A model generated the notes under the pieces. The model was not told where the DNA came from. It saw only the letters and a program-made list of their open reading frames with translations, and searched no databases. A stretch of DNA of 64,000 nt from contig NZ_JARHUI010000001.1 in assembly GCF_029222925.1 (NCBI RefSeq), forward strand, positions 62,986-126,985, in the 5' to 3' direction. Position 1 is the first letter of the stretch, and the number at the start of each line of letters is the position of its first letter. The position numbers and the translations under genes were made by a program. The DNA comes from Algoriphagus sp. CAU 1675. GTDB lineage: Bacteria; Bacteroidota; Bacteroidia; Cytophagales; Cyclobacteriaceae. Below are positions 58,633 through 62,694 of this stretch, piece by piece.

Positions 58633-59895
58633 ATGAGCAAATTTTCGCGCAAGCTTCAAAAATTACACGATACTGCACCCAAGCAGGAAACCGCAGTCTT
58701 AGTCAGCGTCATCCGACAAAACCAAAGCGAACAGGAAACGGAGGAGCATCTGGATGAACTGGCCTTCCTGACCGAAACTCTAGGCGTAAAGGCTGTTTAC
58801 CGTTTTACCCAAAAAATGGAAAAACCCGATATCCGCACCTTTGTGGGTAAAGGAAAGTTGGAGGAAATCCAGGCCTATGTGGAGCATTTTGGGGTGGATA
58901 TGGTCATTTTCGATGATGACCTTTCTCCTTCGCAGATGAAAAACCTGGAGAATGAACTGAAGGTAAAAGTCTATGATCGGTCTTTGTTGATTCTGGATAT
59001 TTTCCTGAAACGGGCTCAAACAGCCCAAGCAAAAACCCAGGTGGAATTGGCCCGCTACCAATACCTTTTACCAAGATTGACCCGCATGTGGACGCACTTG
59101 GAACGTCAGCGAGGAGGAACTTCTACCCGAGGCGGTGCCGGTGAAAAGGAAATCGAAACGGATAAGCGGGATATCCGAAATAAAATCTCCCTCCTTAAAG
59201 CCAAATTGAAGGAGATTGAAAAACAAGGAGAGACCCAGAGAAAAGGCCGAAAGGGTATAGTCCGTGTTGCTTTGGTTGGTTATACCAACGTAGGAAAGAG
59301 CACCTTGATGAACCTCATCACCAAAACTGATATTCTGGCCGAAAACAAACTGTTTGCGACTGTGGATTCAACGGTTCGGAAAGTTGTCCTGGATAATATT
59401 CCCTTTCTGCTTTCGGATACGGTTGGGTTTATCCGAAAACTTCCGACCCACTTGATCGAATCCTTCAAATCTACCTTGGACGAAATTAGAGAAGCGGACC
59501 TACTGGTCCATGTGGTGGATATTTCACATCCCAGCTTTGAGGATCATATTTCCGTGGTCAATCAGACCCTGAGAGAAATCAAAGCCGGTGACAAGCCCGT
59601 TTTGTTGGTTTTCAACAAGATAGACTTGGTGGAAACTATGCCGTCCGAAGAAAAAATCCAAGAGATGAGCGAATTGGAACTGGAGGAAGCCAACTATTTG
59701 GATTTTCAGGCTTTATCCGATGCTTATGAAAAGAAAAATGGGATCAAGCCGGTATTTATGGCAGCAGCAAGTGGACTCCATGTTGAGGAATTCCGGGAGG
59801 CTCTGGTCAACGAAGTCAAAAAGCAGCATAGAAAAATCTACCCGCATTACCTGGAAGATCAGGTGGTCTCTTTTGATCAGACCGAAGAAAAGTAA
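58633..59895 (+). CDS. hflX: GTPase HflX
   Basis: 420 residues. The HflX N-terminal domain (AYVEHFGVDMVIFDDDLSPS and VYDRSLLILDIFLKRAQTAQ) and helical linker (RQRGGTSTRGGAGEKEIETD) precede the G domain: G1 GYTNVGKST near residue 216, G3 DTVGFIRKLP, G4 NKID. HflX binds the 50S subunit and splits stalled ribosomes, notably under heat stress. Length and motif order are standard. The gene is divergent from rfbC and ends at a terminator. Confidence 0.96.
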   Translation: MSKFSRKLQKLHDTAPKQETAVLVSVIRQNQSEQETEEHLDELAFLTETLGVKAVYRFTQKMEKPDIRTFVGKGKLEEIQAYVEHFGVDMVIFDDDLSPSQMKNLENELKVKVYDRSLLILDIFLKRAQTAQAKTQVELARYQYLLPRLTRMWTHLERQRGGTSTRGGAGEKEIETDKRDIRNKISLLKAKLKEIEKQGETQRKGRKGIVRVALVGYTNVGKSTLMNLITKTDILAENKLFATVDSTVRKVVLDNIPFLLSDTVGFIRKLPTHLIESFKSTLDEIREADLLVHVVDISHPSFEDHISVVNQTLREIKAGDKPVLLVFNKIDLVETMPSEEKIQEMSELELEEANYLDFQALSDAYEKKNGIKPVFMAAASGLHVEEFREALVNEVKKQHRKIYPHYLEDQVVSFDQTEEK

Positions 59896-59994: not shown

Positions 59995-62382
59995 TTAGAA
60001 CTTCATACTCACTCCCAACAGGAAGTTGGTTCCTGCCATTGGGTAATAGTAATTTTCTGTAATCAATTCTCTTCCTGAATCTCCCGGCACGAAATAGCTA
60101 AAGGTGTAGCCATTCGGCTCATACATCTCATTGAAGATATTATTGATCAGGAGATTCACTTCCAATCCCTTGAAGAAACGAGGCTGTGCCACATAACTGA
60201 TCCGAAGGTCATTGGTAAAGAATGCATCCAAAGATCTTGATTCATTGGAGGAATTGTCCAAAAACTGTCTGCCCACGTATTTGCTCAACCAGTTTAGCGA
60301 AAGGTTTTTCACCGGTTTAAATTCTATCATGGCTGAACTTACCACGTTTGGTGAAAATGCGATATCTGTATCGGTGTAGCTGAAGCTTTCCTGACGGAAA
60401 TCCTCCACACTATAGTCATCCACATATTCGGTAAACTCCTTGATCTTGTTTTGGCTCAGGGCAATATTAGCTCCCAAGGTCCAAGCTTTGGATACTTGGT
60501 AAGCTCCGTCCAACTCAAGTCCTGCCCGGTAGGAAGAGGCCACGTTTTCGCGGATATAGGCTCCGACATCATTGATCTGTCCGGTAAGGATCAACTGATC
60601 TTTGTAGTCCATGTAGTAAAGGTTGGCATTGTAGGAGAAATTTCCTGCCTTGGCTCTGACACCAGCTTCAATATTGTTCAAGCGTTCCGGTCTTGGCACT
60701 TCGGTGATCGGGTTATCGGTAAAATCTGATCTGGTGGGTTCACGGTTTGCTACGGCATAACTAGCATACCAGGTCTTTCCTAGATTTTCATAGCTCAGAC
60801 CAAACTTGGGATTGAAGAAGGTATAATTTTCTCCACCATCTACAATTCTTTGATCATCATTGACGCCTTCAAAAGAGTAATTAATCCCTCTTACCTGTAA
60901 ATCACCAAATAGATTCAGGCCTGTACTTACCTCATAGGTTGCTTTTGCATAAATATTCCTATCATCCTTGATGGCATTGTTATCATAGTAGCGATCTCGG
61001 ATATTGAGATCTCCGGCAATTCGTGCCCAGATGATTTCTCCAAAATGCCCTCCATCATATCGGTTGGCTCCTCCACCCAGAACCAAGTCCAGTTTACCAT
61101 CTGTGGAAACGTAATTGACAGAGCCCACGAACCCAAAGAAATCATTGTCCAGCCATCTTCTGCGGATGATGTCTGTGCGGGAAATCAACTCCTCTCCGAT
61201 CTGCACGTCTGGTAATCCGTACCTGGAAAACTTGTCATCAGCCCGAAACTGCTCATAATATCCTCTTCCATATGTATAATGCAGGGCCAGATTGGTCTTC
61301 CAGTTGGAGCCGTACTTTCCGGTATAGATCAACTGGTAATGATCCTGCTGATAATTGTCCGTTTCGTTATCGTAGGTGTAGTAATTGGAGGTTCTGTCAG
61401 TCTCCAACAAATACTCCGGAAGACCCCACCAAGACTGGTAGGTTTGCTCTTTTCCGGAGAAAACATTGACCTTCACCACATGCTTTTCACCATAATATCC
61501 ACCGGAAACAAAATAACTTCCCAAATCCGAAAAGGCTCTGTCCACATATCCGTCAGAAGTAATTTTGGAAAGTCTGGCATCCACGGCAAAATGGTTGTTG
61601 AGCAATCCGGTCCCAGCCTTTACAGTGTGCTTCCACGTGTTGAATGAACCCACACTGTTGTCCACTTCTGCATAAGCCTCATCTCTACGGGTGTCGGTCT
61701 GGAAGTTCAAGCTGGCCCCAAAAGTAGCCGCACCGTTGGTGGAGGTACCCACTCCTCTCTGGATCTGCACATTGTCTACAGAGGAGGCAAAATCCGGCAT
61801 ATTCACCCAAAAAACCCCGTGTGATTCTGCGTCATTAAGCGGGATTCCGTTTACTGTTACGTTGATTCGGGTTTGGTCTGTGCCACGGATTCTTAGCCCG
61901 GTATAACCTACCCCTGCACCAGCATCGGAGTGAGTCACCACAGAAGGCGTAAAATTGAGCAGGATTGGAATATCCTGACCCAGATTTCGCTTTGCGATGT
62001 CTCTCTTGCCAATAGTTTGGAAAGTGGTTGGAGTTGTTTCAGAGGCCCTTGTGGAGGAAACGATAAATTCCTCTGTCATAAAATCCTGACTAGTCAGCCT
62101 GATTTCGAGCTCCCCAGAAAAAGGAAGAGTCAAAGTTTGTCTATAGGTCTCATATCCTAGATAAGAAACCCTCAGCTCAATTTCCCCTTGGGGTAATTTG
62201 CTCAATGTAAAATTTCCTTTGGAATCAGTAACGGCACCTCTTCCCAGTTTTTCAGTCCAAACGGAAGCTCCTGTAAGTGGCTCCCCGCTTTGGGCATCCA
62301 GAACTTTCCCGCTCAATGATTCCTGAGCCATAGCTGAAAATGCGGCCAGCCAAAAGGCCAGACCAAGTAATACGTTTTTCAT
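59995..62382 (-). CDS. TonB-dependent receptor, predicted thiamin transporter
   Basis: 795 residues: a signal peptide (LLGLAFWLAAFSAMAQ), a carboxypeptidase-regulatory-like domain (about 22-105, LSGKVLDAQSGEPLTGASVW), a plug domain (ILLNFTPSVVTHSDAGAGVG, LRIRGTDQTRINVTVNGIPL) and a 22-strand-type barrel ending in GVSMKF with the usual terminal Phe. A TPP riboswitch in its 5' leader strongly suggests it imports thiamin or a thiamin precursor through the outer membrane; TPP-controlled receptors of this kind were predicted earlier in Bacteroidota. No inner-membrane thiamin carrier is next to it. Confidence 0.9.
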   Translation of the reverse strand: MKNVLLGLAFWLAAFSAMAQESLSGKVLDAQSGEPLTGASVWTEKLGRGAVTDSKGNFTLSKLPQGEIELRVSYLGYETYRQTLTLPFSGELEIRLTSQDFMTEEFIVSSTRASETTPTTFQTIGKRDIAKRNLGQDIPILLNFTPSVVTHSDAGAGVGYTGLRIRGTDQTRINVTVNGIPLNDAESHGVFWVNMPDFASSVDNVQIQRGVGTSTNGAATFGASLNFQTDTRRDEAYAEVDNSVGSFNTWKHTVKAGTGLLNNHFAVDARLSKITSDGYVDRAFSDLGSYFVSGGYYGEKHVVKVNVFSGKEQTYQSWWGLPEYLLETDRTSNYYTYDNETDNYQQDHYQLIYTGKYGSNWKTNLALHYTYGRGYYEQFRADDKFSRYGLPDVQIGEELISRTDIIRRRWLDNDFFGFVGSVNYVSTDGKLDLVLGGGANRYDGGHFGEIIWARIAGDLNIRDRYYDNNAIKDDRNIYAKATYEVSTGLNLFGDLQVRGINYSFEGVNDDQRIVDGGENYTFFNPKFGLSYENLGKTWYASYAVANREPTRSDFTDNPITEVPRPERLNNIEAGVRAKAGNFSYNANLYYMDYKDQLILTGQINDVGAYIRENVASSYRAGLELDGAYQVSKAWTLGANIALSQNKIKEFTEYVDDYSVEDFRQESFSYTDTDIAFSPNVVSSAMIEFKPVKNLSLNWLSKYVGRQFLDNSSNESRSLDAFFTNDLRISYVAQPRFFKGLEVNLLINNIFNEMYEPNGYTFSYFVPGDSGRELITENYYYPMAGTNFLLGVSMKF

Positions 62383-62390
62383 TTGTTTTT

Positions 62391-62402
62391 ACCCTTTCGG
62401 GT
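62391..62402 (-). promoter_or_regulatory. Small hairpin before the receptor start codon
   Basis: ACCC-GAAA-GGGT, a 4-bp stem with a GNRA tetraloop, ends 8 nt before the ATG. It could affect ribosome access in the TPP-controlled leader; no further evidence. Confidence 0.3.
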
Positions 62403-62480
62403 GATTGAGTGAAACATTAGAAAACTTAGGGGAAGCTTTCCGTGATTGTTTACCCGTGTCGCGCAATGAAATGGAACAGG

Positions 62481-62505
62481 AAAAACCGAATGGTACCAAG
62501 TCCGG
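62481..62505 (-). terminator. Possible regulatory terminator in the TPP leader
   Basis: On the minus strand CCGGA-(10 nt)-TTCGG is followed directly by TTTTT. The 5-bp stem with one G:U is short, but its place about 30 nt after the aptamer fits an expression platform. Confidence 0.35.
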
Positions 62506-62534
62506 CACTCCGAATTCAAATACTCTTTTACGCT

Positions 62535-62630
62535 TTCTCATTTGCCTTCGCCGGCATTACCCGGATCAGGTCGTATGGGTATGATCTCAGCCCGTTGTAT
62601 TAAGGCACCCCTTATGATCTGAGAGCAAAG
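62535..62630 (-). promoter_or_regulatory. TPP riboswitch (THI element)
   Basis: The minus strand carries the conserved core of the thiamin pyrophosphate aptamer in order: GGGGTGCC, then a variable hairpin, GGGCTGAGATCATACCC, ACCTGATCCGGGTAATGCCGGCGAAGG. All the invariant blocks (GGGGUGCC, CUGAGA, ACCUGAUC, UAAUGCC-GCGAAGG) are present. It lies about 150 nt upstream of the TonB-dependent receptor and directs its control by TPP. Confidence 0.96.
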
Positions 62631-62673
62631 GTACAGTGGAAAAGTTTGTTTCCAAGGCTTCAAAACAAAAAAA

Positions 62674-62694
62674 GGGGCTTCAAAAAAGCCCCTA
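62674..62694 (-). terminator. Terminator after the AAA+ ATPase gene
   Basis: On the minus strand AGGGGCTT-loop-AAGCCCCT is an 8-bp stem followed by seven T. Confidence 0.85.

Follow-up and report, generated by a model that had tools for sequence, protein, structure and literature searches.

A TPP riboswitch-led TonB-dependent receptor in Algoriphagus and a candidate thiamin salvage route with a NadR-kinase-like protein

Algoriphagus sp. CAU 1675 carries a thiamin pyrophosphate (TPP) riboswitch in front of a lone TonB-dependent receptor. Judged by aptamer, domains and relatives, we regard the identification of the pair as a riboswitch and a thiamin receptor as nearly certain. The evidence as a whole is probably best explained by a riboswitch-controlled thiamin receptor acting together with a PnuT-like permease, an AAA_28 protein and ThiL.

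The aptamer and the receptor gene

The window, i.e. the whole stretch of 64,000 nucleotides that was analysed, holds a single Rfam match at gathering thresholds (cmscan): the TPP riboswitch RF00059, on the minus strand at positions 62526-62622. Its score is 62.9 bits (E 5.5e-10), above the gathering threshold of 54.3, and the match spans the full model, 1-105, with the core elements CUGAGAU, ACCUGAUCCGG and UAAUGCCGGCGAAGG present. A preliminary description of this DNA had recognised a TPP aptamer on the minus strand, and the Infernal search with the Rfam model bears it out; the location then given, 62535-62630, was right, but its exact ends are about 9 nt off. The genome of the window (G000; 17 contigs totalling 3.81 Mb, completeness 100%) yielded one TPP riboswitch among the 150 first-look candidates that were scored out of 190.

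The receptor gene lies on the same strand at 59995-62382 and encodes a predicted outer-membrane thiamin transporter of 795 residues. Three domains exceed the Pfam cut-offs: an N-terminal CarboxypepD_reg-like domain (PF13715), and the plug (PF07715) and beta-barrel (PF00593) that together make a TonB-dependent receptor. From the aptamer to the start codon at 62382 the gap is 143 nt, close to the 150 nt estimated earlier. Among the matches listed, the named records closest to the receptor are those of Algoriphagus, the best being 84% identical. The AlphaFold model of the protein is moderate (mean pLDDT 65.8, with residues 99-231 below 50) and too weak for a fold search.

The receptor appears to be its own transcription unit, because a hairpin with a T run that resembles a terminator (62673-62693, minus strand, terminator scan) lies behind the upstream gene and the downstream neighbour, HflX (58633-59895), is encoded on the opposite strand. 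The initial view of a lone receptor thus stands.

Promoter and leader

Immediately before the aptamer we find TACCTTTG (62626-62633, minus strand), which we take to be a Bacteroidota-type -7 promoter element of consensus TAnnTTTG; all 17 aligned leaders share the same letter at five of its eight positions. A TTG at 62653-62655 (minus strand), both T of which are invariant in the 17 leaders, is a possible -33 element by the consensus for that site. A scan for promoters of the sigma-70 type returned no site.

From aptamer to start codon, the leader (62391-62533) is occupied by three hairpins on the minus strand, an arrangement conserved among Algoriphagus relatives. Hairpin A (62461-62533, RNAfold) follows the aptamer directly and recurs as a long stem, branched in some cases, in each of the 17 leaders when these are folded one by one. 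Hairpin B (62407-62455), GGGUAAAC...CACUC with a C-rich loop, was obtained with RNAalifold from the 17 leaders; four of its 17 pairs have pair-keeping changes on both sides. Hairpin C, ACCC-GAAA-GGGU at 62391-62402, emerges from leader alignment and folding and is placed 8 nt before the ATG.

Two candidate expression platforms were considered. For an intrinsic terminator, the region between aptamer and ATG offers only a weak hairpin (62508-62493); the terminator sites of the leader region number two against a shuffle mean of 0.7, and one of them is the terminator of the upstream gene. For sequestration of the start codon, constrained folding of the 17 leaders gave no consistent change: with the aptamer enforced, access to the start codon was lower by more than 0.05 in two leaders, that of the window included, and higher in none. 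A pairing of four bases of the aptamer 5'-strand with the start codon region, proposed by RNAalifold, was treated as chance, and the fold of the whole leader is not more stable than its shuffles (z -0.11). A passage of PMC5613172 reports that the mRNA of Bacteroides transport operons is not significantly changed by thiamin; translational control would fit such unchanged transcripts.

Riboswitch and receptor in relatives

We kept the best 80 of 592 candidate receptor loci. A match to the aptamer model lies just upstream of the receptor in 79 of these best 80, the weakest being L083 with 25.4 bits; at the 80th, L076, the receptor match starts at base 29 of the contig and no leader sequence is there. 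The aptamer model was built from 27 sequences, the window's own among them, so the window's aptamer matches by construction. Judged from these matches, the pairing of riboswitch and receptor is more than chance across the receptor loci. In the family sample, a TPP riboswitch is matched at E <= 0.01 in 189 of 196 genomes and over the cut-off in 168.

Tandem matches to the aptamer model precede the receptor in eight of the 79 loci (L059, L070, L085, L088, L098, L100, L103 and L110). Four of the eight are named Pedobacter, and some of the second copies are weak, with E up to 0.046. Tandem TPP riboswitches are termed rare in a passage of PMC2258182.

Thiamin genes and the permease-kinase pair

None of ThiC, TMP-TENI (ThiE) and thiamin pyrophosphokinase (TPK) was matched in G000. 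ThiL is encoded at C12:221430-222422 (333 bits). By its gene content, the organism is apparently auxotrophic for thiamin. Taken with the covariance model and the pairing in relatives, the missing ThiC and TMP-TENI matches support the original proposal that the receptor is a probable outer-membrane thiamin transporter. ThiL needs thiamin monophosphate (TMP); as no ThiE was found, a kinase would have to supply it from thiamin, and an AAA_28 protein is the obvious candidate for this kinase.

In G000 we found a single gene each for the PnuC family and for AAA_28 (68 of 78 AAA_28 candidates scored), adjacent and in overlapping frames at C1:569454-570576. The rest of the route had been expected elsewhere in the genome, and these two genes indeed stand together 444 kb from the riboswitch, with no riboswitch of their own. 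The permease matches PF04973 and, in NCBIfam, the nicotinamide riboside transporter PnuC (113.6 against a cut-off of 42.45). The kinase-like protein shows only AAA_28, in a stretch of 173 residues (Pfam), where a NadR would have both domains.

These names invite the main alternative, that the distant PnuC and AAA_28 genes encode a nicotinamide riboside transporter and kinase of NAD salvage, and that thiamin passes the inner membrane by another carrier and is phosphorylated by another enzyme. The Pfam, NCBIfam and PDB matches (NMN transporter family, AAA_28, NadR) all point that way, as does the lack of riboswitch linkage of the pair in G000. The PnuC name itself does not discriminate, because NCBIfam gives it both to a riboswitch-led permease of Marivirga and to a NadR-linked one.

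Gene context in relatives argues against NAD salvage. An AAA_28 gene lies 140-2316 nt upstream of the first possible start of the TPP-riboswitch receptor, on the same strand, in 26 of the best 80 of 592 loci; for 20 of the 26, the flank contains a PnuC-family gene as well. The upstream flank was longer than 5.5 kb in 68 of the 80 loci and shorter in the rest. Records of Cyclobacteriaceae, Marivirgaceae, Hymenobacteraceae, Sphingobacteriaceae and Flavobacteriales are included among the AAA_28-receptor loci. L086 has a PnuC-family gene alone in the receptor flank; L096, where no receptor ORF was called, has neither gene. The receptor flanks of the 12 loci named Algoriphagus contain no permease-kinase pair. 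The preliminary description had it that a thiamin kinase often accompanies such receptors: a kinase-like gene does so in the 26 loci, but the partner in Bacteroides, Tnr3, is a thiamine pyrophosphorylase according to a passage of PMC5613172.

The permease-kinase pair can itself be headed by a TPP riboswitch, which again speaks against NAD salvage. Marivirga (L059) has three riboswitches that exceed the gathering score of 54.3: one, with 54.6, stands directly before pnuT-AAA_28, and the other two precede the receptor. G178 carries a second PnuC-family gene, which lies directly behind a TPP aptamer (L132:4943-5055) that scores 45.5 bits, below 54.3, with its core intact; that this gene is present besides the orthologue of G000's permease is, on the other hand, a point against the thiamin route. 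A TPP riboswitch match was found at eight of the 17 family pair loci fetched, loci that were partly picked for it, and at three of the 15 class pair loci fetched; the 12 without one count against the thiamin route. In the Algoriphagus genomes the pair has moved away from the riboswitch: by 27-33 kb in G082, G158 and G178, to another contig in G130, and by the 444 kb of G000. The permease of G000 may be called PnuT-like in the following sense: it belongs to the PnuC family, and the linkage to thiamin genes or riboswitches is seen in members of its clade, not in G000.

Other recurrent neighbours were considered for the missing kinase and rejected: Pfam assigned unrelated families to the ten ORFs scanned, of which nine come from pair-less receptor loci and the tenth adjoins G178's second PnuC gene. 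Separately, in four family genomes (G136, G137, G104 and G033; L152-L155) the kinase-like gene adjoins an MFS gene, with no PnuC-family gene there. All four neighbours are MFS by Pfam, and the two scanned with NCBIfam come nearest to efflux-type models, below the cut-offs; we make no claim for them as thiamin carriers.

The receptor might also carry something other than free thiamin, such as a precursor of the vitamin or one of its phosphorylated forms, and import of whole TPP would make a kinase unnecessary. After all, the riboswitch senses TPP and not the cargo, and the Pfam and NCBIfam family names of the receptor give no hint of thiamin. Precursors, however, would be useless without ThiE, of which none was found, and relatives put the kinase gene, often with the permease gene, beside the receptor. 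We hold such a cargo to be very unlikely, and free thiamin remains our preferred reading.

Thiamin and NAD genes across the family

We profiled ThiC, TMP-TENI (ThiE), TPK, ThiL, the PnuC family, AAA_28 and NadA in 40 family genomes, hand-picked from the 196-genome sample and including G000. ThiL is present in all 40, AAA_28 in 37, the PnuC family in 37 and ThiC in 11, leaving 29 without it. The TPK catalytic domain (PF04263) was matched in none of the 40, G000 included; the control, Bacteroides ihuae, gave its match. TMP-TENI is matched at E <= 0.001 in 20 of the 40 genomes, over the cut-off in 18, and is counted as strong in 17; set aside from the strong ones were G120 (partial matches over the cut-off) and G149 and G170 (below it).

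All 23 family genomes that lack both ThiC and a strong TMP-TENI have AAA_28 (22 of 22 if G120 is removed). AAA_28 is likewise present in 29 of 29 ThiC-minus genomes versus 8 of 11 ThiC-plus ones, with a Fisher p of 0.017 for genomes that are related to each other. The three genomes without a PnuC/AAA_28 pair (G066, G068 and G124) possess ThiC and TMP-TENI, and NadA too. Their NadA counts in favour of NAD salvage, and the ThiC-minus/AAA_28 pattern therefore fits that alternative as well.

NadA gave no match in 25 of the 40 family genomes, G000 among them, which is a further point for NAD salvage: without NadA, G000 could need the uptake of nicotinamide riboside. For the same reason, NAD prototrophy fails as an argument against nicotinamide riboside. 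An anticorrelation of the pair with TPK does not discriminate either; in the class sample of 37 genomes, permease and kinase genes adjoin each other in 21 of the 28 that lack TPK and in 5 of the 9 that have it.

Trees, lid motif and fold

We compared the pair with NadR systems in an AAA_28 tree of 72 rows and a permease tree of 57 rows, calling riboswitch-linked any copy within 4 kb of a hand-listed match. The AAA_28 protein of G000 falls into a 14-row clade (100/96) that includes one identical pair: nine rows are riboswitch-linked, and the remaining five come from G000 and members of its genus. The NadR-type kinase domains of G017, G065, G122 and G136 form one clade (100/99) together with the PnuC-adjacent copies of G033 and G104. 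The permease tree is split in the same way, with G000 among riboswitch-linked copies (100/98) and the NadR-type permeases apart (100/98). There are exceptions: the riboswitch-linked permeases L164 and L165 group with NadR-type permeases (96/85), and L173 and L174, f6 kinases that are likewise riboswitch-linked, stay outside the main AAA_28 clade. The places of several tree rows are unsure because of long branches.

In G017, G065, G122 and G136 the PnuC-family gene adjoins a protein of NadR length (320-328 residues); in L188 and L190, the two that were scanned (from G017 and G122), Pfam sees both the adenylyltransferase and the kinase domain. The NadR-length protein of G075 is more divergent, its adenylyltransferase-domain match being below the cut-off. 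A separate main-clade AAA_28 protein exists in each of G017, G033, G065, G104, G122 and G136, so that the four genomes with a PnuC-adjacent NadR-length protein have it in addition, which weighs against NAD salvage. The only PnuC-family protein found in these six ThiC-minus genomes belongs to the NadR-type clade, and thiamin would therefore need another carrier there.

The two types also differ in their lid motif, as read from an alignment of 28 chosen rows. With the f6 and NadR-type copies set aside, all 19 that remain have DPxR(E/D), and 14 of these are riboswitch-linked. Six of the seven NadR-type rows have DGxRD, the seventh, L192, not being readable, and the solved NadR lid is DGLRS. Both f6 copies aligned (L173 and L186) have DDxRD.

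In the f6 proteins of three class genomes (L173:3269-5389, L174 and L175), the AAA_28 domain sits inside a frame of 706-774 residues. The one scanned, L173, is a fusion of AAA_28 with DUF4301; L181 and L186 have a separate DUF4301 gene after AAA_28.

The model of an Aquiflexum AAA_28 protein (pLDDT 94.4) is nearest to NadR structures (TM 0.88 to 8x7f), followed by thymidylate kinases. As the nearest solved relatives are nicotinamide riboside enzymes, a changed substrate is a prediction. With the distinct clade and lid of the NadR-type copies set beside the family names and the NadA counts, we consider the assignment of the pair to NAD salvage unlikely.

A relaxed permease and kinase might instead serve both vitamins, thiamin and nicotinamide riboside. 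G000, where one PnuC-family and one AAA_28 gene were found and neither ThiC nor NadA was matched, would suit such double duty. The existence of separate NadR-type clades is against it, and we give this idea slightly less credence still than an altered receptor cargo.

Discussion

In the route that we favour, the riboswitch would sense the TPP of the cell and, when TPP is bound, turn expression off, probably without a strong intrinsic terminator, so that less of the lone receptor is made. The receptor would import thiamin across the outer membrane and the PnuT-like permease would carry it through the inner one. The AAA_28 protein would then phosphorylate thiamin to TMP, trapping it in this way, and ThiL would make TPP from TMP. 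We lean towards this full route, with AAA_28 as the thiamin kinase, on the strength of gene content and context. We infer the kinase step from the pathway gap and the gene context, with nicotinamide riboside as the main rival substrate.

Taken alone, the riboswitch-receptor pair is unremarkable and follows an arrangement already known, that of Bacteroides OMthi. As described in PMC5613172, Bacteroides thetaiotaomicron has OMthi (BT2390) and pnuT-tnr3: like here, a TPP riboswitch precedes a TonB-dependent receptor, the permease is of the PnuC family, and the genes for receptor and permease may lie apart in the genome. The same source states for Bacteroides that deletion of OMthi or pnuT raises the need for thiamin once biosynthesis is also deleted. 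Unlike here, B. thetaiotaomicron has Tnr3 and a biosynthesis operon (PMC5613172). G000, with no TPK or ThiC match, has ThiL and a NadR-kinase-like protein instead.

The candidate pair resembles NadR and PnuC in that an AAA_28 kinase domain of the same fold adjoins a PnuC-family permease. The G000 protein differs from NadR by having no adenylyltransferase domain, by its lid motif and clade, and by the riboswitch linkage of its relatives. In E. coli, ThiK and ThiL salvage thiamin in two steps, thiamin to TMP to TPP, and ThiK belongs to the APH kinase family. The candidate route would follow the same two steps, with an AAA_28-type P-loop kinase in place of a ThiK-type enzyme.

A full-text literature search, with subscription journals mostly outside its coverage, found no description of a NadR-like thiamin kinase. 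We think it rather likely that AAA_28 proteins with the DPxR(E/D) lid are such an undescribed thiamin kinase, and that together with ThiL they replace TPK across Cyclobacteriaceae and relatives.

Among the family genomes sampled, the presence of ThiL (40 of 40) without a recognisable TPK (0 of 40), and for the most part without ThiC (29 of 40), exposes a gap, and the pair recurs by the riboswitch-led receptor. If thiamin is the substrate of AAA_28, the gap in vitamin B1 salvage would be closed, and the salvage route of receptor, PnuT, kinase and ThiL would be complete in auxotrophs. The names given to PnuC- and NadR-like proteins of many Bacteroidota, now taken as nicotinamide riboside proteins, would then have to be re-examined.
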